From Levilactobacillus mulengensis (GTDB lineage Bacteria > Bacillota > Bacilli > Lactobacillales > Lactobacillaceae), in NCBI RefSeq assembly GCF_003946045.1, contig NZ_RHNW01000003.1:186001-250000 (forward strand): a stretch of 64,000 bases of DNA. The letters run 5' to 3'. Both the position numbers and the translations under genes were made by a program. A model generated the notes under the pieces. The model was not told where the DNA came from and searched no databases. It was given only the letters and a program-made list of their open reading frames with translations. Below are positions 6,940 to 60,915 of this stretch, in pieces. Positions within the stretch are counted from its first letter, which is position 1, and each line of letters begins with the position of its first letter.

Positions 6940-7179
6940 GTGAAAACTGGGCCGGAACGCGGTGACGTTCGTTCTCGGCGGCGGGTTCAAAACGCCCTGC
7001 TATGGGGCCGGTTCCAGCCTGAAGGGCGGTCTTCCACCTCAACTTTGCGTCTGGGAATCGGTCGCAAAGGTTGTCCCGTGGACTAGGCTGAGAAAGAACC
7101 TCAGCCAAGGCCACCGACACAGCTGGGCATTTTGACCCGCCTCTGGTCACTGATATCCACCAGCGTGGCCCATTTTCAC
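6940..7179 (-). repeat. Structured intergenic repeat A1
   Basis: The outer stem is GTGAAAACTGGGCC (6940-6953) with GGCCCATTTTCAC (7167-7179). The inner covarying stem is GGGTTCAAAACGCCC with GGGCATTTTGACCC. Further local hairpins are CAACTTTGCG/CGCAAAGGTTG and AGGCTGAG/CCTCAGCC. The 3' end of the element lies 34 bp after the dehydrogenase stop codon. Confidence 0.85.
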
Positions 7180-7254: not shown

Positions 7255-7493
7255 GTGAAAGCTGGGTCGGAACATGGTGACGTTCGTTCCCGGCAGCGGG
7301 TTCAAAACGCCCTGCTATGGGGCCGGTTCCAGCCTGAGGGGCGGTCTTCCACCTCAACTTTGAGCCAAAGGGCGGTCTCAAAGGTTGTCCCGTGGGCTAG
7401 GCTGAGAAAGAACCTCAGCCTAGCCCACCGACACAGCTGGGCATTTTGACCCGCCTCTGGTCACTGATGTTCACCAGCGTGGCCCGTTTTCAC
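7255..7493 (-). repeat. Structured intergenic repeat A2 (tandem with A1)
   Basis: This is a second copy in the same orientation, 315 bp from A1 and about 90% identical to it. It has the outer stem GTGAAAGCTGGG/CCCGTTTTCAC and an intact AGGCTGAG/CTCAGCCT hairpin. Small ORFs across it are artefacts. Confidence 0.85.
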
Positions 7494-11358: not shown

Positions 11359-12093
11359 ATGTCAACCACATACACGACGGGCGAATTGGCTCGACTAGCA
11401 GGCGTTTCGGTACGGACGCTGCAATACTATGACCAGAAGAATGTGCTCAAACCCACAGTGGTTTCTGACGGTGGCCGGCGCATCTACACGGCCAATGATT
11501 ACGAACAGCTGAAGTTGGTTTTGCTCCTAAAGAGTCTTGGCCTGAAGCTGGCCGCCATCCAGGAGATTCGAACCAGTGATAATGCGCAGGAAGTCTTGTC
11601 CTTACTGCTGGCGGAGCAGGCCAAACGGCTGACACATGACCGCGACGAGGCGACAATCCAGCTCAAGACGGTTATGACCGTGCAGAAGAGCCTAACCGAT
11701 ACAGCCAACGTGTCCCTCAAATCCATTCAGGACATGGATCAGCTAATGAATAACCATCAGTCTTTGAAACAGATACGCCTCAAGTTAGTTGCGGGGGGTC
11801 TCGCGATGGACGCCATTGAGGTGGCTGGACTGGTTTACTCTTGGCAATCGGGGAATTGGTGGGTCTTCGGCGGCACGATGGTCCTGGCCGTTGTCGTGGC
11901 AACGGTACTGATGCGATGGTATATGCGGTCGGTGGCCTACGTTTGCTCGCATTGCCAAACGACCTTTCAGCCGCGGTTTTGGGCCGCTTTTTGGGCGGGC
12001 CACAATCCGCGAGCCCGGAAGCTAGTTTGCCCCCACTGTGGGCGTAAATCGTATTGTGTGGAGGTATTTGCTAATCCGACCGAAGTGAAATAG
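11359..12093 (+). CDS. MerR-family regulator fused to membrane segments and a zinc ribbon
   Basis: The 244-residue protein starts at ATG 8 bp after AGGAGG. Residues 5-70 are a clear MerR helix-turn-helix (YTTGELARLAGVSVRTLQYYD, GRRIYTANDYEQL) with the following dimerisation helix. At about 150-195 two hydrophobic stretches (LAMDAIEVAGLVY, FGGTMVLAVVVATVLM) look membrane-spanning. The C-terminus carries CSHC...CPHCG, a four-Cys zinc-ribbon-like motif. A membrane-tethered MerR protein is unusual. Its own promoter has MerR-type 19-bp spacing. The next gene (12141) follows after about 48 bp and is probably co-transcribed. Confidence 0.85.
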   Translation: MSTTYTTGELARLAGVSVRTLQYYDQKNVLKPTVVSDGGRRIYTANDYEQLKLVLLLKSLGLKLAAIQEIRTSDNAQEVLSLLLAEQAKRLTHDRDEATIQLKTVMTVQKSLTDTANVSLKSIQDMDQLMNNHQSLKQIRLKLVAGGLAMDAIEVAGLVYSWQSGNWWVFGGTMVLAVVVATVLMRWYMRSVAYVCSHCQTTFQPRFWAAFWAGHNPRARKLVCPHCGRKSYCVEVFANPTEVK

Positions 12094-12140
12094 ACTAGGG
12101 ATAGTTAGTTATTTCACAAATGGAAGGGTGGGCGTTTTTC

Positions 12141-12977
12141 ATGGATAAGAAGCGAACGATTCGGTTGGTTTTGCCACAGTGGCCGGGGGCTAGTTCGGCC
12201 GATAATCGGCTGAGTGCGCAGTTGCTGTCGTTGATTTTGCCGCCAGACGCTGGTGCAGAGACAATTCAGGTGCCGCTGGCTGAGGGAATCGTGGCCGGCG
12301 GAGAGAATCAACCGGTCGTCTTGCAACAGATTGCGGAGACACAAGCAATCTTAGCTGCCAAACACCCTGACCACGTGATTACGGCCGGTGGTGGGAGTGT
12401 CATTTCCGCGGCACCGGTGGATTACTTGAGCGGCAAGTATGGCGAGCATCTCGGCCTGCTATGGTTAGGTGTGCACCCAGACATTGCCGACCCGAGCACG
12501 TCATCGCACTTATCTGAAATGGTGGCGGGTAACTTGCTGGGTCAGGGCGATCCAGCGTTGACCGTCCAACAACCACTCCTGCCCCGTCAGTTGATGTATG
12601 CGGGATTGAATGAGCCGTTGCGTCCCATGGATCAGGCCGTCACGTCGCTAGGCATTCGGCACGCCACCGCGGAGGATATTGCCAGTGACAGCCAGTCCGT
12701 GCTGGATTGGTTGGCGGCGGAACACCTGACCCGGGTTGCCGTTCACTTCGACCTGGATGTCCTGACACCAGCGGACTTCCGGTCGATTTTACCGGCCCAA
12801 TCTTACACGGAACCAGCTGATGCGGGTACGGGGGAATTAGCGTTGCGGCAGGTCGTGCGGTTGCTGCAAGATGTCAGTGCGCAAGCCGAGTTAGTTGGGT
12901 TCAGCATCGCCGCACCATTGCCTCAAGATGCGCTTAATCTGCGCCAGGCTCTGAGTGATATTTCAATCTTTAACTAA
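12141..12977 (+). CDS. Arginase/agmatinase-fold protein with degenerate metal site
   Basis: The 278-residue protein keeps the ureohydrolase layout: an ITAGGGS block (about 80-86), WLGVHPD (108-114) and VHFDLDVLTP (about 200). In arginases these are GG(D/N)H, DAHxD and SxDxDxxDP. Here the first His is Ser, and the first Asp of DAHxD is Gly, so at least two Mn ligands are lost; the second His, its Asp and the DxD pair remain. Catalysis by the usual two-Mn mechanism is therefore doubtful. It follows the membrane MerR gene. The ATG at 12141 follows GAAGGGTGG; the ATG at 12120 has no ribosome-binding site. Confidence 0.8.
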   Translation: MDKKRTIRLVLPQWPGASSADNRLSAQLLSLILPPDAGAETIQVPLAEGIVAGGENQPVVLQQIAETQAILAAKHPDHVITAGGGSVISAAPVDYLSGKYGEHLGLLWLGVHPDIADPSTSSHLSEMVAGNLLGQGDPALTVQQPLLPRQLMYAGLNEPLRPMDQAVTSLGIRHATAEDIASDSQSVLDWLAAEHLTRVAVHFDLDVLTPADFRSILPAQSYTEPADAGTGELALRQVVRLLQDVSAQAELVGFSIAAPLPQDALNLRQALSDISIFN

Positions 12978-13014
12978 AATAAGTGATCATAACAGCGTGT
13001 TACCAATCGATACT

Positions 13015-13053
13015 AAAAGCGACGACTACTTGCAAACTGTAGTCGTCGCTTTT
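13015..13053. terminator. Terminator between arginase-like gene and the convergent antitoxin gene
   Basis: AAAAGCGACGACTAC and GTAGTCGTCGCTTTT form a perfect 15-bp stem usable in both directions. Confidence 0.85.
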
Positions 13054-13104
13054 GTGTGGCTGTTTTTGACAATCTACATGACATGCTTGCTTGGGATGAT
13101 GAGC

Positions 13105-13620
13105 CTAATCAATGGCTAAATTAAGCTTACTAAAGAGCTTATCAGCGTTGACGTCATTTTTAGGAGCTCGGGAACGAATTAGCGGTCGATGTTGCCGGAT
13201 GAGATTCCGTAAGTCATTTGGCTGGGTCAGAAGACGGAGCTTAATTTCCTGGTCAAAAGATTGTAGAAGAAGACTGTTTTCAATGTTGGAGAGAGTCGCA
13301 AAACTCATAGCCAGAATCAAGGCGGCTTCACGTAAGGTTAGGCCTAATTGTTCGCGGGCAGCTTTTATCTCTGCTGGAAAAAGAAAACCGTATGTTTCGC
13401 GATAGAGCCGATAGTCTGAAGTGAAATTAGTATCAACCGTATCTAGGGGCTCCAGGTAGGTCTCCGAATCGTGAATATCGCTCCCGGCAGGAACCCAATA
13501 GCGGTGTGTATTTTCTAGCGGGTCGCCCCCAATTAACTCCGTTTCCGTGAGTTCAATGACCGTATAGGCTAGGCTATTTCCCATAGCATCGGCGGCGGTT
13601 ACGTGATCAATGATTTTCAT
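13105..13620 (-). CDS. MqsA-like antitoxin with C-terminal XRE helix-turn-helix
   Basis: The 171-residue protein has a C-terminal HTH (FPAEIKAAREQLGLTLREAA...SFATLSNIENS, about residues 80-120) of the type found in MqsA/HigA antitoxins. The N-terminal 75 residues contain no Cys, so the zinc finger of classic MqsA is absent. It is the second gene after the toxin-like gene (20-bp gap), matching the toxin-first order of mqsRA. GTAGGTAATAG precedes the ATG. It would neutralise the toxin and repress the operon. The pairing is inferred from gene order plus both sequences. Confidence 0.65.
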   Translation of the reverse strand: MKIIDHVTAADAMGNSLAYTVIELTETELIGGDPLENTHRYWVPAGSDIHDSETYLEPLDTVDTNFTSDYRLYRETYGFLFPAEIKAAREQLGLTLREAALILAMSFATLSNIENSLLLQSFDQEIKLRLLTQPNDLRNLIRQHRPLIRSRAPKNDVNADKLFSKLNLAID

Positions 13621-13640
13621 ATCTATTACCTACTTTCTGT

Positions 13641-13988
13641 TTAGTGGTATGTCCAAGTGAAATTTATGGGCTTTTCTCGAGAGTGAAATGATTCAATCTG
13701 ACTGAATTCTGGGCCAATATCAAATTTAATGTACATGTCACTGTCGTCAATCATCGTAATAAACTCGTAGACAGTGAGATGCGCTTTCCAATGATGAGGA
13801 GAGGGTCCACGATAATAATGATTGTTGGATAGCTGACTAATGGCCATTTGGATCATAGCATCTATGGTCAACCGATGGGCCTTTAAATAATCTTTGGATT
13901 TTTTATGAAGGAATATTCTGAGTTGTCCTGATTGGTAATCATCTTCTAATCGTTGAATGATGCGGTCAATGTTTGGCTGATTATTCAC
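13641..13988 (-). CDS. MqsR-like toxin (putative mRNA interferase)
   Basis: The 115-residue protein starts at GTG after GAGGAA. Its pattern (SKDYLKAHRLTIDAMIQMAI, HYYRGPSPHHW, VYEF, MYIKFDI, IESFHS) resembles the small RelE-fold MqsR group, where the equivalent segment contains FYKSMT and VYLKI. MqsR cleaves mRNA at GC(U/A). The resemblance is at the level of motif order, so confidence is moderate. Two direct AGGTT boxes (14012-14016 and 14021-14025; AACCT on the coding strand) lie upstream and recall the AACCT/AGGTT halves of MqsA operators. Confidence 0.6.
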   Translation of the reverse strand: MNNQPNIDRIIQRLEDDYQSGQLRIFLHKKSKDYLKAHRLTIDAMIQMAISQLSNNHYYRGPSPHHWKAHLTVYEFITMIDDSDMYIKFDIGPEFSQIESFHSREKPINFTWTYH

Positions 13989-14011
13989 GTGAGTTCCTCG
14001 ATTCCAGAAGT

Positions 14012-14025
14012 AGGTTCTAAAGGTT
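14012..14025 (-). promoter_or_regulatory. Possible antitoxin-binding boxes upstream of the toxin gene
   Basis: AACCT-TTAG-AACCT on the minus strand gives two copies of the MqsA half-site, arranged here as a direct rather than an inverted repeat. Confidence 0.35.
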
Positions 14026-14149
14026 AACTCCGTAAAAAACAGCCAAATGTTTTTTTGAAATGGAAAAAGTTTAAAACAACATAAATGTTATTACACAATA
14101 ACAGAATTTTACCATGGACCCACCCCAATAGCAACGAAACGCCACAACA

Positions 14150-14186
14150 AAAGCGACTAACCCCCAATCGGATTAGTCGCTTAATT
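14150..14186. terminator. Terminator-like hairpin
   Basis: AAGCGACTAACCC pairs with GATTAGTCGCTT around CCCAATCG. It lies downstream of the NlpC remnant on the minus strand. Confidence 0.65.
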
Positions 14187-14207
14187 GTCATGCATTAAAT
14201 TGAATTT

Positions 14208-14413
14208 TTAGTGGAAAACCCGAGCAATTCCGGCAACGTATGAGCGTTGACCGTTCTTGATAGGTTGAATCATGATCCGTGGTGGCCAGCTTTCGATGAC
14301 TTTGCCCTTACCTAAGTAAATGGCCACGTGCCAGATGACGTGGGTACCAGGTTCGTAGTAGAAGACCAGGTCGAGCTTTTTTGAATAGCTTGTCTGTGTT
14401 GAAGGAAGTCACT
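14208..14413 (-). pseudogene. C-terminal remnant of an NlpC/P60 endopeptidase
   Basis: Reading the minus strand from about 14413 to the TAA at 14208 gives LPSTQTSYSKKLDLVFYY, then HVIWHVAIYLGKGKVIESW and ending YVAGIARVFH. This matches the last third of NlpC/P60 peptidoglycan hydrolases, including the catalytic-His region HVAIYLG. In-frame stops lie immediately upstream. The catalytic-Cys segment, signal peptide and start are gone, and the usual PGDLVF appears as LDLVF. It is a decayed fragment, possibly of a gene once paired with the nearby secreted peptidase. Confidence 0.75.
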
Positions 14414-14455
14414 AGACCAAGGACTGTTAGTCTGTAAACTTATCTCAAAGACGAC

Positions 14456-14494
14456 GAAACGCGACTAACCTCAGAATCAGGTTAGCCACGTTTG
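14456..14494. terminator. Terminator downstream of the C39-like peptidase gene
   Basis: AAACGCGACTAACCT and AGGTTAGCCACGTTT form the stem. It resembles the hairpin at 14150-14186, sharing CGACTAACC, so the two may be duplicates flanking the remnant. Confidence 0.65.
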
Positions 14495-14568
14495 ATTGAA
14501 CTGTGTAATCTTACTAAGATTCACTATCATTTTTATCCAGATTCAAAATAGAATTATACCGAATAGAG

Positions 14569-15504
14569 TTAATAGATTGTCATAGCGTGTTTGCCATATT
14601 CCTTCTTGAAGTGTGAAATTGATTCCCAACTAATAGCACCGTGATCATACTTCATATTTTTGCCACCGGTACCGGCCTTAGCGGTTGAACTGTAGTATAA
14701 GGGATCATTGACTTTGAATTTACCATTCTTGTAGCCGACGATAACCTTGCAATGATTACGGTTCTTGTCATTGTTCTTTTGATAGGATGAGTAACCATAA
14801 AACAGGACAGGATATCCACCTTGAACGTACATCTTGATATCATTGGCGCTAGCCTTGGAGATATTTGCAGTCCGCTTAGTCCAATGATGAGAGTACTTGG
14901 TTAGTGCAGCAGCGGTGATGACGTGGCCGAAGCCGACACCTGTGTAAACATTACCTTTTTGACCGCCTTTAGTTGGTACCATTGGCAGATGATTTTGGGC
15001 ATAACGTAAATTAACTTTTACACCACGGTAACGGAGCAACATGCTCATTGCAGCTGAGGCACAGCCCCAAGGAGCAAACACGGGTTTGTATTGACTGACG
15101 TAAGGAACCTTCATAACTTTACTTGCTGTATTGGTAGCCACAGCCTTTGCGTTAACATAACCTAAGTAGGTTTTCTTCGAATTATAAAGACGGTAGTAGG
15201 TTCTACCATTACTCAACTTATACTTACCATTTGCTTTATAACCCTTGTGGAAAAGCTTATTTGAAGATGAGACTGCGTGCCAGTTGTCTTGATAAACTTT
15301 GTAGTCCTTTTTTACAAAGTGGACTTTGTGGCTGAAAGATTTCCAGGATTTGCTGTCCTTAGCCGGTACCGCTTTCATTGCGGCGTTAGCGGTGAGTGGT
15401 TCTGGTGTCACTGATGGGATGCTGATACTGCTACCAACTGTGATGATAGCGAGTAAGGCTGCCCCATTGCGGAGTAGTCGCTTGCTCAGACTAGTTTTAA
15501 CCAT
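14569..15504 (-). CDS. Secreted C39-like cysteine peptidase
   Basis: The 311-residue protein starts at ATG after AGGAGG; the in-frame ATG further upstream (15555) is unlikely. A signal peptide (KRLLRNGAALLAIITVG, cleavage near TANAA) is followed by an SH3-like region (about 60-125; KVYQDNWHAV, YYRLYNSKKTYLGYVNA). A C39_2 peptidase-like domain then has Cys148 (APWGCASAAM), His251 (NHCKVIVGY) and Asp267 (VNDPLYY) as the expected triad. It is probably exported and acts at the cell surface, on peptides or cell wall. A good promoter lies at 15544-15572. Confidence 0.85.
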   Translation of the reverse strand: MVKTSLSKRLLRNGAALLAIITVGSSISIPSVTPEPLTANAAMKAVPAKDSKSWKSFSHKVHFVKKDYKVYQDNWHAVSSSNKLFHKGYKANGKYKLSNGRTYYRLYNSKKTYLGYVNAKAVATNTASKVMKVPYVSQYKPVFAPWGCASAAMSMLLRYRGVKVNLRYAQNHLPMVPTKGGQKGNVYTGVGFGHVITAAALTKYSHHWTKRTANISKASANDIKMYVQGGYPVLFYGYSSYQKNNDKNRNHCKVIVGYKNGKFKVNDPLYYSSTAKAGTGGKNMKYDHGAISWESISHFKKEYGKHAMTIY

Positions 15505-15543
15505 GATGGTTCCTCCTATATATGTATGTTTGTCACAGAGGCA

Positions 15544-15572
15544 ATTATACATCAAAAATATTTGCGCGACAA
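15544..15572 (-). promoter_or_regulatory. Promoter of the C39-like peptidase gene
   Basis: On the minus strand TTGTCG (15572-15567), a 17-bp spacer and TATAAT (15549-15544) stand about 40 bp upstream of the ATG. Confidence 0.7.
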
Positions 15573-15922
15573 TATTAAATGTATATTGGACTAACTAAGT
15601 ATGTGAAATTTTGATTGTTATTTAAGTTGTTGCCAAATCTGTACGTGGCGTGTACTAATGCTGAGTTCAATGAATAATTCCACGTAGAATGAATTTGATT
15701 GTTTAAAGACAAACCCGTGAAAAGTGGAATATAGCTTGATACCATATGCTGTTAACTGGAGTCTAAATTGGAAAATTATAAGAAAAGCATCAGACAAAGT
15801 ATCTTACTGTATGGTCGTCTAAATTATGTTTTGTACGGTAAACTAATAGCTATATAGGGACATAGTTTTTCCTTATGGCTAGCAGTTGAGCGAATGTTAG
15901 AAATATTAAAAGTAACGAAAGA
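15573..15922. other. A+T-rich spacer
   Basis: I see no gene, repeat copy or convincing structure here. It is clearly A+T richer than the surroundings, which may mark old horizontal transfer or decay. Confidence 0.5.
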
Positions 15923-15959
15923 GGGCTGCGACATTCATTATTTCAGAAAGTCGTAGCCC
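15923..15959 (-). terminator. Terminator-like hairpin downstream of the isochorismatase-family gene
   Basis: GGGCTGCGAC pairs with GTCGTAGCCC. The minus strand continues CTCTTTCGTTACTTTT, a weak T tract. Confidence 0.55.
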
Positions 15960-15984
15960 GTTTCATAACGCTAACGTGATTAAT

Positions 15985-16536
15985 TTAAATAATTTCCGCA
16001 CCCAAGCACGTTTTAAAGTGATTCAACGCCCAAGCGTGACCAGCAGGATAGAAGCTAGCCACCGCATCGGCGGGGATGATGAGGTGGTAGCCGAGGTTGT
16101 AGGCATCCACTGCAGTATGCAGGACGCAAATGTCGGTACAAACGCCCGTGAGAATCAGGGTGTCCACGTGGCGTTCGCGCAAACGCAGGTCGAGATCCGT
16201 CCCCGCAAATGAACTGTAGCGGGTCTTATCGAATTGCCAGACGTTTTCCGCGGCTTGATTTTGCTCAAACCATTCTTTCACGTCGCCAAATAGCTCGCGT
16301 CCCCAACTGTCGCGAACATTGTGGGGTGGGAAGAGCTTGGTCTCGGGGTGGTAGGGGTCGTTCGGCGTATGGACGTCGGTCGGTAGGAGTACCCAACCGC
16401 CAGCCTGGTGCGTTTCATCGGCTAGTTTGGTGATGGCTGGTGCTAGGAGCTGCCCCGGTTGGCCGCAAGTCAGGGCCCCGGTGTCCGCCACAAAATCGTT
16501 GGTGTAATCGATGATCAACAAAGCTTGATTTGTCAT
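15985..16536 (-). CDS. Isochorismatase-family cysteine hydrolase, nicotinamidase-like
   Basis: The 183-residue protein starts at ATG after GGGGGA. The catalytic triad of the family is visible: Asp10 (LLIIDYTNDF), Lys104 (FDKTRYSSF) and Cys137 (CTDICVLHT). Asp54, His56, His63 and His72 (PTDVHTPNDPYHPE...PPH) match the metal site of nicotinamidases such as PncA, so conversion of nicotinamide to nicotinate in NAD salvage is the likeliest role. Other amidase substrates cannot be excluded. It appears monocistronic. Confidence 0.85.
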   Translation of the reverse strand: MTNQALLIIDYTNDFVADTGALTCGQPGQLLAPAITKLADETHQAGGWVLLPTDVHTPNDPYHPETKLFPPHNVRDSWGRELFGDVKEWFEQNQAAENVWQFDKTRYSSFAGTDLDLRLRERHVDTLILTGVCTDICVLHTAVDAYNLGYHLIIPADAVASFYPAGHAWALNHFKTCLGAEII

Positions 16537-25158: not shown

Positions 25159-25182
25159 GCGAAACAGATTGTGTAAACTGTT

Positions 25183-25319
25183 GCGCCTGCGGCCTCCAGG
25201 TACTCCGCCTGCTGTGGGGTCGGTTCCCGCCTGAGAAGCGGGCTCCCACCTCGACTTTAAGCCCTGCGGGGATCATGCAGGTCTCAAAGGTCGTCCCCGT
25301 ACCTGGCTGCCTCCGGCTC
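25183..25319 (-). repeat. Structured intergenic repeat B1 (short form)
   Basis: CCAGGTAC pairs perfectly with GTACCTGG, flanked by GCCTGCGGC and GCTGCCTCCGGC. The hairpin holding the CAGCTGTGTCG motif is missing, so this copy is internally deleted. Its 3' end faces the flavodoxin stop codon. Confidence 0.75.
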
Positions 25320-25534: not shown

Positions 25535-25770
25535 GTGAAAATGAGAGGTCAATGTTAGCGACCAGAGGCGGGCCAAGGTGTCCAGCTGTGTCGGTGGTCT
25601 TAGTTGAGTGGATTTCTCAACTTAGAGCACGGGACGACCTTGGAAACTCACGGTTTTGGTGAGGTTTCAAGGCGAGGTGAAGGACCGTTTCTCAGGCCGG
25701 AACCGGGCCCCACAGCAGGATACCTTGAGCCAGCCGGCGGGAACGAATTTGACCACGGCCTCGTTTTCGC
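25535..25770 (+). repeat. Structured intergenic repeat A3
   Basis: The outer stem is GTGAAAATGAG with CTCGTTTTCGC, and the covarying stem is CAAGGTGTCC with GGATACCTTG. Motifs GACCAGAGGCGGGCC, CAGCTGTGTCGGTGG and CCCACAGCAGG are present. Its 3' end faces the GNAT gene 81 bp on. Confidence 0.85.
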
Positions 25771-28377: not shown

Positions 28378-28556
28378 CTCCGTCAGCCAGGCACGCCGCC
28401 TGCTATGGGGAACGGCTACGGCCTGAGAATCGGTCCTTCGCCTCGCTTTTAAGCCGCAAAGATCACGCGTCTCAAAAGTCGTCCCGTGACGTAAGCCGGT
28501 AAAAAACACCGACTAACGCCACCGACACAGCTGGCTCTGTGCCTGGCTGACTCCGG
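28378..28556 (-). repeat. Structured intergenic repeat B2
   Basis: CCGTCAGCCAGGCAC pairs with GTGCCTGGCTGAC. Inner hairpins are GCCGGT/ACCGAC-type and CTTTTAAGCC...CTCAAAAG. Its 3' end lies 16 bp from the permease stop codon. Confidence 0.82.
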
Positions 28557-30165: not shown

Positions 30166-30393
30166 GAAAATAACCCGCAAATGTCAGTGACCAGAGGCGG
30201 GCCAAACCGCTCAGTTGTGTCGCTGGTCTTAGCTGAGGTTTCTTCACTCAGCTAAGACCAGGGGATGACCTTTGAGACCGTTCCTCAGGCTCAAAGTCAA
30301 GGTGGAAGCCCGTACCACAGGCTGGAACCGGCCCCACAACAGGGCGGTTTGAGCCCGCCGCCGGGAACGAACCATTTGCTAATCGTTATTTTC
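30166..30393 (+). repeat. Structured intergenic repeat A5
   Basis: The outer stem is GAAAATAAC with GTTATTTTC and the covarying stem CAAACCGCTC with GGGCGGTTTG; both differ from other copies yet pair. The hairpin GGTCTTAGCTGAG/CTCAGCTAAGACC is perfect. Its 3' end faces the WxL operon 47 bp on. Confidence 0.88.
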
Positions 30394-34940: not shown

Positions 34941-35167
34941 GGGGAAATGGGCTAGTCGTGGGAGTGACCAGAGGTGAGCCAAGCCGACCAGCTGTGTCGG
35001 TGGTCTTGGCTGAAGTTCTTTTTCAGCCTAGTCCACGGGACAATCTTTGCGACCGGTTCTTAGGCGCAAAGTTGAGGTGGAAGCCCGCTCTTTGGCTGGA
35101 ACCGGCCCCACAGCAGGGCAGCTTGAGCTCACCGCCGGGAACGGACGCGACGAGGCCCATTTTCACC
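34941..35167 (+). repeat. Structured intergenic repeat A6
   Basis: The outer stem is GGGGAAATGGGC with GCCCATTTTCACC; the covarying stem is CAAGCCGACC with GGGCAGCTTG. Its 3' end faces the stop codon of the M20 peptidase 34 bp away. Confidence 0.85.
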
Positions 35168-36499: not shown

Positions 36500-36723
36500 G
36501 GTAAAATGGTGTGCGCATGTCGTTCCCGGCGGCGGGTTCAAGGTGCCCTGCTATGGGGTCGGTTTCAGCCTAAGGTGCGGGCTTCCACCTCAACTTTGAG
36601 CCAAGGAGCGGTCTCAAAGCTTGTCCCGTGCTCTAACCTGAGAAGGACACTCAGCTAAGAGCACCGACACAGCTGGGCACCTTGGCCCGCCTCTGGTCAC
36701 TAACGTTAGCGGTCAATTTTACC
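36500..36723 (-). repeat. Structured intergenic repeat A7
   Basis: The outer stem is GGTAAAAT with ATTTTACC; the covarying stem is GGGTTCAAGGTGCCC with GGGCACCTTGGCCC. Its 3' end faces the M20 start codon 64 bp away. Confidence 0.85.
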
Positions 36724-37983: not shown

Positions 37984-38193
37984 GAGTGATCAACGTTAGT
38001 GACCAGAGGCGGGCCAAAGTGTCCAGCTGTGTCGGTGGTCTTGGGTATTTGCCCAGCCTAGTCCACGGGACGACCTTTGTGACCGCTTTTTAGGCACAAA
38101 GTCGAGGTGGAAGCCCGTTCTTTAGGCTGGAACCGGTCCCACAGCAGGGCGCTTTGCCCCCGCCGCCGGGAACGACAAATTGATCAGTCACTC
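37984..38193 (+). repeat. Structured intergenic repeat A8
   Basis: The outer stem is GAGTGATCAA with TTGATCAGTCACTC (2-nt bulge), unlike other copies. The covarying stem is CAAAGTGTCC with GGGCGCTTTG. Its 3' end is 41 bp before the OpuC-type operon. Confidence 0.82.
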
Positions 38194-48151: not shown

Positions 48152-48163
48152 CGTTTCCCTTCG

Positions 48164-48354
48164 CTGCGCCTGCGGCTGACAGACACGGACCCACTGTGGG
48201 GACCGCTGGAAGCCTGTGGAGCGGTCTTCCAGCTCGACTTTGAGCCTCGGAGTACACGAGTCTCCAAGCTCGTCCCGTGGTGTAAGGCCGAGAAAAAACG
48301 CTCGGTCTAACACCACCGACACAGTGGGTCCATGTCTATCCTCCTCCGGCTCCG
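48164..48354 (-). repeat. Structured intergenic repeat B5
   Basis: GACACGGACCCACTGT pairs with ACAGTGGGTCCATGTC; other stems are GGCCGAG/CTCGGTC and CTTTGAG/CTCCAAG. Its 3' end faces the glpQ stop, so B4 and B5 bracket the ugp operon. The stem sequence is quite different from B1-B4. Confidence 0.75.
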
Positions 48355-48442
48355 CTGACGTGGCGTTAGTTCGCCGACGCTGGTAGCGAGCGGGGCGTCC
48401 ACGGAATCTAGTAGGGGCAGGTTAAATAAAACTCAGTGCAAT

Positions 48443-48500: not shown

Positions 48501-49055
48501 TTAGTCGGCAAGGACGTGCGCAAATTCTGCGCCCAACTGTTGGGCAGAGAAGGCGTAGGGGGCTAAGGCGTCATCCGTGTTTTTGAATTGACCGTTCTCG
48601 TCCAAGGCATCCTTTTTCAAATCGATGCGGAGGTTGTTGGTCATGATGGGCATCTTCAATCCCCGAACCACTAGTTGCATGCCTAGGGCCGCTTGAAAAC
48701 CACCGTGACCGCCGTAAGAAACTAGGCTGACGGGCTTGCCGCGCCATTCCCAGTAGAGTGTGTCGAGGGCGTTTTTCAGTGGCGCCGGGTAACCCCAATT
48801 GTATTGCGGGAACAGCAGGATAAAGGCGTCGTAACCCTGAATCAACGCGCTCCATTGCTTAGTGTGCGCCAGTTCGTACTGGTTGTCGGAAGGCATGGCT
48901 GCCTCATCCAGGAAGGGCAGATGGATGTCTGCCAAGTCAATGAGATCAATGTCTAGGCTGTCGTGGGCCACGTTTTGTTGGAGCCAGGTCGCGATGCTGG
49001 GACTGATTCGACTGGGACGCGTGGAGCCAATGATTAAGCCAATTTTTTTCGTCAT
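48501..49055 (-). CDS. NADPH-dependent FMN reductase / azoreductase family
   Basis: The 184-residue protein starts at ATG after AAGGAG. It has the flavodoxin-like fold with FMN loop GLIIGSTRPSRISPSIATWL, then FPQYNWGYPAPLKNALDTLYWEW and the SYGGHGG loop. Enzymes of this family reduce FMN, quinones, azo dyes or metals. It is divergent from a MarR gene whose operator overlaps its start site, so MarR control is likely, perhaps in response to quinones or oxidants. Confidence 0.92.
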   Translation of the reverse strand: MTKKIGLIIGSTRPSRISPSIATWLQQNVAHDSLDIDLIDLADIHLPFLDEAAMPSDNQYELAHTKQWSALIQGYDAFILLFPQYNWGYPAPLKNALDTLYWEWRGKPVSLVSYGGHGGFQAALGMQLVVRGLKMPIMTNNLRIDLKKDALDENGQFKNTDDALAPYAFSAQQLGAEFAHVLAD

Positions 49056-49078
49056 AATGGGTCTCCTTAAAGTTAATG

Positions 49079-49091
49079 GTGCAATATGCAC
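49079..49091. promoter_or_regulatory. Putative MarR operator
   Basis: GTGCA-ATA-TGCAC is a perfect palindrome at the expected transcription start of the reductase gene. Confidence 0.6.
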
Positions 49092-49093
49092 AC

Positions 49094-49122
49094 ATCTTAG
49101 CATGGTTCTGGTATAATGACAA
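49094..49122 (-). promoter_or_regulatory. Promoter of the FMN reductase gene
   Basis: On the minus strand TTGTCA (49122-49117), a 17-bp spacer and TAAGAT (49099-49094). It overlaps the marR -10 box on the other strand. Confidence 0.7.
49109..49117 (+). promoter_or_regulatory. Extended -10 promoter of the MarR gene (leaderless transcript)
   Basis: TGGTATAAT is a perfect extended -10. The MarR ATG begins 7 bases after it, where transcription should start, and no ribosome-binding site is present. Confidence 0.65.
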
Positions 49123-49123
49123 C

Positions 49124-49567
49124 ATGGATAATGAAATTTTTGAAGCACTCTTTGAAATCGTGACGTTTTTCAATCAGCCCCAGCAAGATCGACGTTTGCT
49201 AAAGCAGTCCAACATCTCGCTGGAACCGGCCGCCCTGCCAATCATTGTGCGGGTCGGTCGCCAACCGGGAATCAGTATTGGCGAACTGGCCAACCAGATT
49301 GGGCGGAATCATTCGTCCATCAGTCGCCAGGTCGATAAGCTAGTCACAGCGGGATGGCTCGTGGAGGTCGAGCGGCGTGACCAGCGGATTCGGCAGGTCA
49401 CACTGAGCCCCCAAGGCCAACGGGCGCTGTTACAAATCAAAATTGCCAGAGAAGCTGCTTTACGCGATAAACTACAGGACTATTCAAACGCCGACAAGGT
49501 TGCGCTACTGCAGGTCTTGCAGCAATTGGCAACGACCTTGACGGGGCCCGGCGAGTATCGCGAATAA
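49124..49567 (+). CDS. MarR-family transcriptional regulator
   Basis: The 147-residue protein has a MarR winged helix (ISIGELANQIGRNHSSISRQVDKLVTAGWLVEVERRDQRIRQVTLSPQG). It is divergent from the FMN reductase gene. The first ATG consistent with the fold is 49124, only 7 bases after a perfect extended -10 box; no Shine-Dalgarno is visible, so it is probably translated from a leaderless mRNA. The next gene follows after 22 bp and is likely co-transcribed. Confidence 0.9.
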   Translation: MDNEIFEALFEIVTFFNQPQQDRRLLKQSNISLEPAALPIIVRVGRQPGISIGELANQIGRNHSSISRQVDKLVTAGWLVEVERRDQRIRQVTLSPQGQRALLQIKIAREAALRDKLQDYSNADKVALLQVLQQLATTLTGPGEYRE

Positions 49568-49589: not shown

Positions 49590-50255
49590 ATGAAACAAAA
49601 AATGTTGTGGCAACGAGGCGCCATCATGCTTGGATTTTACGGTCTGTGGTGGTTGCGAACCGTGGGCTGGGTCGCCATTAACGGGAATAATAGTGAGTCG
49701 GGCTGGGCAATCGTGATTTTGGTGGGCGAAGTCTTGTTACTACTAGCCCCCTGGGTCCTGATTCTGGGATCGTTCGCTTTTTTCTCGGGCGGGTATGGAC
49801 TGATCACGGCAACGCTGTTACCCCTGACGGTTCTTTCTAGTCAGTGGCTGAGCGGTTATGCGGCAGTCATTCTTCCCGGGCTCATACTGTTTACGGGCTG
49901 GGTGTTGGCAACCGCTAAGCTGAAATTGGCCTTCGGACGGTCGACAAAATGGGTCGGCGGCATCGTGGCTGGCCTAACGTGTCTGTGTCTTTTGGCACCA
50001 CAGGCCAGCGCGCGGCTGTTCGTGGCGGGGTATCACTCCCCGTATCCGGCCGTCGTCGGGACGTACAGTGCAGACCGCAGTTCGTTGCGTGAGGCGCATT
50101 ACCTGGATTATTCACCCGCGGATCCGGCGGTAGCGGAACCAGGTCTGTTGGGGACAACGGGTTATCCCGTGTCTGATCAAAACAGTTTGGGCATTAAGGT
50201 TTACCAGCTAGGATTTGTCTATTGGCCAGTGGAGGACCGTTGGTGGATTGCGTAA
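49590..50255 (+). CDS. Hypothetical membrane protein
   Basis: The 221-residue protein has four or five hydrophobic segments (residues 10-30, 42-65, 70-110, 122-137) and a C-terminal soluble tail rich in Tyr and Pro (HSPYPAVVGTYSADRSSLREAHYLDY, VYWPVEDRWWIA). I do not recognise the family. GATGAG precedes the ATG. It is probably co-expressed with the MarR gene upstream. Confidence 0.65.
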   Translation: MKQKMLWQRGAIMLGFYGLWWLRTVGWVAINGNNSESGWAIVILVGEVLLLLAPWVLILGSFAFFSGGYGLITATLLPLTVLSSQWLSGYAAVILPGLILFTGWVLATAKLKLAFGRSTKWVGGIVAGLTCLCLLAPQASARLFVAGYHSPYPAVVGTYSADRSSLREAHYLDYSPADPAVAEPGLLGTTGYPVSDQNSLGIKVYQLGFVYWPVEDRWWIA

Positions 50256-60616: not shown

Positions 60617-60915
60617 TTGATTAGAGCCAGGGCCAACGATGTTCCTAGAAAGGCCAACGATTGTGTGAGTGACCAGAGGCGGGTCAAGGTGCTCAGCTGT
60701 GTCGATGGTCTTGGCTGAGGCCTTTTTCAGCCTAGAGCATGGGGCGACCTTGGAAACACGCGTTTCTTAGCGTGATTTCAAGGCGAGGCGGAAGACCGTT
60801 CCTCAGGCTGGAGCCGGCCCCCACAGCAGGGCACCTTGAACCCGCCGCCGGGAACGGGTGCCAGCCACCACCTGAATTTCTAGGAATATTTTGGGAAACC
60901 TCTGGCTCTAATCAA
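60617..60915 (+). repeat. Structured intergenic repeat A9 (longest outer stem)
   Basis: TTGATTAGAGCCAG is perfectly complementary to CTGGCTCTAATCAA at the ends, and TTCCTAGAAA to TTTCTAGGAA inside. The covarying stem is CAAGGTGCTC with GGGCACCTTG. The 3' stem reaches the likely -35 region of pepD, whose -10 is TATACT at 60926-60931. Confidence 0.88.

Follow-up and report, generated by a model that had tools for sequence, protein, structure and literature searches.

The locus described here lies in a window of 64,000 bp (the whole stretch of DNA that was analysed) from the 3.1-Mb genome of Levilactobacillus mulengensis (GCF_003946045.1, contig NZ_RHNW01000003.1, positions 186,001 to 250,000), and all coordinates below refer to this window. 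It carries two divergently transcribed genes, one coding for a MarR-family protein (marR) and the other for an NADPH-dependent FMN reductase, with two sets of promoter elements and a palindrome in and around the short region between them (Table 1). The best solved relatives of the reductase were yeast YLR011w and the azoreductase YhdA of Bacillus subtilis. Directly 3' of marR, an open reading frame on the plus strand (49590-50255) codes for a predicted membrane-type protein of 221 amino acids, which had no Pfam or NCBIfam match at an E value of 0.001.

Table 1. Features of the marR/reductase locus, in window coordinates.
Feature	Coordinates	Strand	Remarks
NADPH-dependent FMN reductase gene	48501..49055	-	184 aa, SD-led, ATG at 49055; PF03358, E 3.8e-30
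Reductase SD, AAGGAGA	49062..49068	-	SD pairing kept in 34/34
Palindrome GTGCA-ATA-TGCAC, GTGCAATATGCAC	49079..49091	.	Arms perfect over 5 bp; proposed MarR operator
Reductase extended -10, TGC TAAGAT	49094..49102	-	TAAGAT at 49099-49094, 17 nt from the -35
marR extended -10, TGG TATAAT	49109..49117	+	TGG at 49109-49111, TATAAT at 49112-49117; no recognisable -35 hexamer
Reductase -35, TTGTCA	49117..49122	-	TTGNNA at the same offset in 34/34
-10-to-ATG gap of marR, GACAAC	49118..49123	+	6 nt, no SD; 5 bases shared with the reductase -35 on the opposite strand
marR	49124..49567	+	147 aa, cysteine-free; predicted to be leaderless, with transcription from the start codon
marR codons 2-10	49127..49153	+	AT-rich, synonymously conserved; -40 to -66 of the predicted reductase start, the place of an UP element

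The marR product contains the winged-helix domain of the MarR family above the curated Pfam cut-offs (MarR_2, 35.3 bits with a cut-off of 27, E = 1.3e-8; MarR, 30.6 bits with a cut-off of 24.6, E = 3.1e-7), and no NCBIfam equivalog matched it at its cut-off. The protein was found in 34 of 35 Levilactobacillus genomes, the genome lacking it being 72% complete, and the nearest named relatives, L. lanxiensis and L. wangkuiensis, showed 99% protein identity. A wider search at an E value of 1e-20 detected marR in 26 of 301 genomes drawn from the family, distributed over 4 of 40 genera; it was present in one of five genomes of genus g19 and in all three of genus g21. A wrongly chosen marR start codon was ruled out, as the best match begins at residue 1 in all 34 genus members, and at residue 1 or 2 in the 11 orthologs from other genera (33-45% identity). 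In two orthologs, L038 (G026) and L070 (G024), one TAA was reported inside the match, which may only mean a shorter C-terminal end.

MarR proteins of the OhrR/YodB kind are thiol-sensing and are marked by a sensing cysteine. The orthologs studied here contain no cysteine in 32 of 34 cases and a single one in the other two, so that a thiol-sensing MarR of this kind was rejected, and the lack of cysteine argues for ligand rather than thiol sensing.

A structured repeat of about 140-190 bp, abundant and interspersed, has one of its copies at 48160-48365, beside the end of the reductase gene. This copy yielded 11 blastn matches in the window, itself included, the others being located at 7016-7127, 7331-7441, 25182-25297, 25586-25715, 28421-28530, 30216-30338, 34986-35090, 36567-36677, 38027-38144, and 60697-60826. 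Matches were present in 27 of 34 Levilactobacillus genomes and in 14 of 151 family-drawn genomes (5 of 40 genera), and the L. mulengensis genome gave 255 first-look candidates, 22 of which were scored. In an alignment of 14 copies, out of the window copy and 20 others taken, changes on both sides that keep pairing were seen at 17 of 39 base pairs, all 39 having been predicted on the same alignment. The window contained no Rfam match at the gathering score, four copy-bearing loci returned one match (E = 0.73), and nothing was found on the repeat in the literature covered. The repeat has the appearance of an undescribed family that forms an RNA or a hairpin. Elsewhere in the window, the block at 12001-16000 has a GC content of 0.444 compared with 0.497-0.547 in the other 4-kb blocks, and is possibly acquired DNA.

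Next, the promoters were compared in the upstream regions of all 34 genus members, a set related by descent. In L. mulengensis, the extended -10 of marR ends 6 nt before the ATG, just as the initial annotation had it, and the -35 position is occupied by CACACA, which is not a -35 hexamer. The TG and the TATA.T of this element (TG.TATA.T) were kept in 34 of 34 genomes. For the reductase, a TAnnAT sequence 17 nt past the TTGNNA was likewise present in all 34; it is preceded by TG in 32 genomes, and the remaining two have a perfect TATAAT. With the usual spacing of 7 nt, the transcription starts were predicted at 49124 for marR and at 49087 for the reductase. The reductase -35 thus falls in the space from the marR -10 to the marR start, and the place of a marR -35 is taken up by the reductase -10 and start.

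These data indicated that two predicted promoters on opposite strands overlap in common DNA, their elements interlocking over 49094-49122 in every one of the 34 genomes. A reductase promoter TTGTCA-17-TAAGAT in the DNA of the marR promoter had been proposed before, and it was indeed read on the minus strand and is kept throughout the genus. The accompanying description of the two promoters as face-to-face was wrong, since the transcripts diverge from predicted starts 37 bp apart: the promoters are back-to-back and interlocked. Because the footprints of two polymerases would fall on common DNA, polymerase competition is plausible. It may be negligible at low basal activity, given that the basal activity of the five bidirectional promoters tested by Warman et al. 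(2026) was too low for competition, as stated in the available part of that study (PMC12825309).

The distance between the marR -10 and its ATG was found to be 6 nt in 8 genomes, 7 nt in 23, and 59-61 nt in 3; the locus of L. brevis ATCC 14869 (L007) has the 6-nt gap, as in L. mulengensis. SD-like pairing, determined as the pairing energy of 20 nt (-22 to -3) with the anti-SD sequence, was absent in front of marR in 31 of the 34 (best -5.4, median -2.9 kcal/mol), compared with a median of -8.65 kcal/mol (range, -7.4 to -11.1) for the reductase in all 34. Moreover, the marR gap is fixed to 6-7 nt in these 31 genomes, whereas the reductase leader, from -10 to ATG, ranges from 37 to 49 nt. A -10 placed for transcription to start at the start codon, with no SD, is the mark of a leaderless gene, and 31 of 34 orthologs carry it. 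The leaderless marR put forward in the initial annotation is therefore well supported by comparison. The observation that would have counted against it, a start further upstream with a usable ribosome-binding site, found no support either: SD-like pairing being absent in 31 of 34 orthologs, a far-upstream start would still have no usable site. Where the gap is 7 nt (23 species), a T stands at the usual start position, so that transcription may begin at the A of the AUG or up to about 3 bases before it. In the favoured reading, the marR mRNA would begin at or within about 3 nt of the AUG and be translated leaderless.

Promoter-like matches are expected by chance, and the counts were examined accordingly. 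A consensus promoter scan gave 4 sites versus 3.8 expected from shuffles; the reductase promoter was among the matches, and the scan alone is no evidence for it. The marR promoter, lacking a -35, was not among the sites that this simple scan reported. Genome-wide, TATAAT-N5-8-ATG occurred 79 times versus 56 for the reversed pattern, a mild enrichment, and TATAAT-N0-20-ATG occurred 318 versus 254 times. Among all 79 places, a script covering exact TATAAT only found the marR site alone to combine a TGN before the TATAAT with an open frame of at least 60 amino acids, and the idea that leaderless genes are common in this genome was rejected on this count. On inspection by eye, some of the other long frames among the 79 seem to begin at ATGs that lie upstream of, and in frame with, the start of an SD-led gene. 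The uniqueness of the marR site singles it out without proving the leaderless layout, for which the genus comparison is decisive. A chance promoter-like match was ruled out by the conserved register of both promoters in 34 of 34 genomes, which, being related by descent, do not amount to 34 independent trials.

The perfect-armed palindrome that had been noticed at the reductase start does cover the predicted start, extending from -4 to +9 relative to it and from -45 to -33 relative to the predicted marR start. The exact form GTGCAnnnTGCAC (GTGCA-N3-TGCAC) was found in 29 of 34 genomes, at -33 from the TATAAT in 25 and at -31 in 4, and 5 genomes had no exact palindrome. A repeat finder run over 49040-49140 reported no repeats, missing this short palindrome. 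In these 29 genomes, the putative autorepressor gene has an inverted repeat overlapping its own predicted promoter, as is characteristic of MarR autorepressors, and we infer that the palindrome is the MarR operator. Since both the reductase start and the place of the marR -35 fall within it, a single site probably serves to repress both genes, and one bound MarR dimer could block both promoters. A wider regulon was not indicated by the palindrome, as only 2 exact sites exist genome-wide versus 4 for the reversed pattern; the sole other site lies inside a reading frame, so MarR looks like a local regulator.

The three genus members with a long gap (L049, L054, and L056) retain the promoter core, 59-61 nt in front of the start codon, and possess strong SDs (-10.5, -12.6, and -12.6 kcal/mol, respectively). 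The start codon is GTG in L054 and L056, and ATG in L049 and in all 31 leaderless orthologs. GUG also starts leaderless mRNAs in mycobacteria, according to the available sections of one study (PMC4633059), and the two GTG species are sisters, so this contrast is only suggestive. To place the exceptions, leader states assigned by eye before tree building were mapped on a midpoint-rooted tree of 45 MarR proteins, 34 from the genus and 11 from other genera, for which long branches were flagged (L058 and L070 among them). L049, L054, and L056 formed one clade with a support of 99/93. The SD-led state arose twice, in this clade and in L059, an ortholog from another genus, and both changes are forced by supported branches. 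Within the clade compared here, the leaderless state would be the simplest ancestral one.

The layout also reaches beyond the genus. Orthologs L058, L061, and L062, from two other genera, have 7-nt gaps and appear leaderless-like, with L061 lacking the TG and L062 carrying TAAAAT, and seven further orthologs, all of genus g4, apparently lie directly behind another gene, as assessed by eye. The interlock recurs in three orthologs of two other genera (L058, L062, and L059). At the same offsets, elements for the divergent gene were read as TTGCAA and TATGAT in L058 and as TTGCTA and TAATAT in L062; in L059 the fixed offset gives CTTGCA, and by eye TTGCAT-17-TATCTT lies one base out of register. 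The divergent protein of L058 gave no tblastn match to the reductase, and a 70-residue piece of it had no Pfam hit. In L061, the reductase is about 0.8 kb away and ATCCTA stands in place of its -35.

Upstream ATGs were present in two of the SD-led orthologs. L059 has an ATG where the old start would be, 6 nt past the -10; it begins a frame of 4 codons ahead of the SD-led marR start and is possibly a relic of leaderless initiation. The corresponding ATG of L049 is 4 nt past the -10 and begins a frame of 8 codons; a normal transcription start would fall at or after this ATG, so that the frame may not be within the transcript or be translated. Neither of these frames is present in L054 and L056.

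We also determined how far the first marR codons are constrained, expressing the result as the excess of same-codon agreement over the average that these amino acids have in the gene as a whole, in overlapping windows across the 31 leaderless orthologs. Codons 2-10 showed a mean excess of 0.252, above all 121 other windows (maximum, 0.102), compared with 0.035 for the first ten columns of the reductase, a value reached by 26 of 158 windows. The GC content in marR codons 2-10 is 0.25 versus 0.58 elsewhere, and the reductase start, at 0.35, is AT-rich too. Low structure was dismissed as a mark of the leaderless start because it did not distinguish the genes, the mean MFE of the first 39 nt being -2.57 kcal/mol for marR and -3.14 kcal/mol for the reductase. 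Either leaderless translation or an UP element of the reductase promoter over the same bases could account for the constraint on the first marR codons.

Building on the observed layout, its conservation, the absence of an SD and the two gains of an SD leader on the tree, we consider it quite likely that this pair forms an autoregulated, effector-responsive switch with a leaderless repressor mRNA; the transcript ends, repression, ligand, low output and competition are inferred parts of it. A cysteine-free MarR and an FMN reductase of the quinone/azo kind would be transcribed divergently from two interlocked sigma-70-type promoters within the same 37 bp or so. MarR bound at the single GTGCA-N3-TGCAC operator would shut both promoters and would be released by a small-molecule ligand, probably one of the reductase's substrates that resembles a quinone or a phenol; the suggestion of a quinone or phenolic inducer comes from the reductase partner. 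Leaderless translation of marR would keep the repressor output low, while the SD-led reductase would be made efficiently, and only one polymerase at a time could occupy the common DNA.

A rival reading takes the TATAAT as a genuine promoter with a minor start near the AUG, the working marR message coming from another start, e.g., by upstream read-through. The failure of the simple scan to report a marR promoter fits such a message, but a longer mRNA would not gain an SD in 31 of 34 genomes, and the marR gap is held at 6-7 nt in those 31 beside a leader of 37-49 nt for the other gene. Furthermore, wherever a leader is present within the genus, a strong SD is present with it (3 of 3), and we regard a working message from elsewhere as improbable. 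Even less credence is due to the view that the minus-strand reductase promoter is fortuitous and the reductase is expressed otherwise. The scan sites, as many as in shuffles, would allow for it; the presence of TTGNNA-17-TAnnAT in all 34 genomes, two of which have lost the TG but carry a perfect TATAAT, does not, and beyond the genus the promoter is absent in the one ortholog whose reductase is non-adjacent. A fortuitous promoter is thus very improbable.

A weightier objection, although we think it rather unlikely, holds that the first marR codons are conserved as the UP element of the reductase promoter instead of for leaderless translation, and that the leaderless layout merely results from fitting two promoters into little space. 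In its favour, codons 2-8 are rich in A/T and occupy roughly positions -40 to -60 relative to the predicted reductase start. However, L061, with a non-adjacent reductase and no -35 for it, is still leaderless-like with an A/T-rich start, and ATTTTTGAAGC persists in the SD-led clade, where the longer leader parts marR from the promoter. Both counterpoints are few cases, and they lean towards translation as the cause of the codon constraint. Returning to the repressor switch, we can take the leaderless start itself to be selected as the translational set point of the repressor, with some 50 bp holding three overlapping signals (the N-terminal codons, the leaderless start, and the divergent -35/UP element) and the start twice replaced by an SD leader behind a retained promoter. 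This extension is speculative, and we would sooner expect it to fail than to hold. If the set point is real, the upstream ATG of L059 hints at the origin of the 5'-terminal AUGs known on SD-led mRNAs.

In Bacillus subtilis, MhqR and YodB are MarR-type repressors of quinone and azo stress linked to an FMN-dependent azo/quinone reductase. YodB senses by cysteine, unlike the MarR of L. mulengensis, which has none. In Tn1721, tetR and tetA are transcribed divergently and operators cover both promoters; tetR differs in that its product belongs to the TetR family, its partner is an efflux gene and it resides on a mobile element, whereas here a MarR with a reductase partner is chromosomal and genus-wide. 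The likeness lies in a leaderless mRNA for the repressor, and both lambda cI and Tn1721 tetR are given as leaderless repressor genes in the available text of one report (PMC3017554). A tetR control, printed as Tn1741, was used as leaderless in another (PMC4965119, available part).

The acuR-acuI-dddL operon of Rhodobacter sphaeroides is similar in that the transcript of its autorepressor starts at the AUG, as mapped by 5' RACE, and its operator overlaps the promoter; the leaderless layout was also predicted in relatives, and changing the ATG to GTG greatly lowered expression. It is dissimilar in belonging to the TetR family and in having a co-directional operon with SD-led downstream genes, and the accessible sections of the paper do not describe a divergent interlocked promoter (PMC3017554). 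The bidirectional promoters of Warman et al. resemble our locus in having two divergent starts at so short a distance that polymerases are mutually exclusive. According to the available text, their starts flank or lie within a shared -10, mostly 18 bp apart, with 10 and 23 bp also common (PMC12825309); here the starts are 37 bp apart and the -10s are separate (49112-49117 on the plus strand versus 49094-49099 on the minus strand), so that a bidirectional promoter in the sense of Warman and Grainger was rejected. For rcoLS20 of pLS20, also a Gram-positive system, overlapping divergent promoters of an autoregulator and its target were reported, together with DNA looping and a long 5' UTR, which set it apart; the word "leaderless" is absent from the part of that paper at hand (PMC4207663).

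As far as the literature was covered, nothing direct was found on leaderless genes in lactobacilli, nor on the MarR of L. brevis or a marR/reductase pair. Zheng et al. (2011) reported leaderless genes in the Lactococcus-Streptococcus and Oenococcus-Leuconostoc clades and, in the available portion of their survey, none identified in Lactobacillus (PMC3160421). The marR gene would thus be a conserved, chromosomal, leaderless autorepressor gene in a group from which, according to that portion, no leaderless genes had been identified. Related species with or without a leader behind the same promoter core form natural pairs, on which one can test the old question of what makes leaderless repressor genes so frequent and how an SD leader is acquired by a gene without one. 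Leaderless repressors and overlapping divergent promoters are both already known; the present locus would join the two in a MarR/reductase pair.
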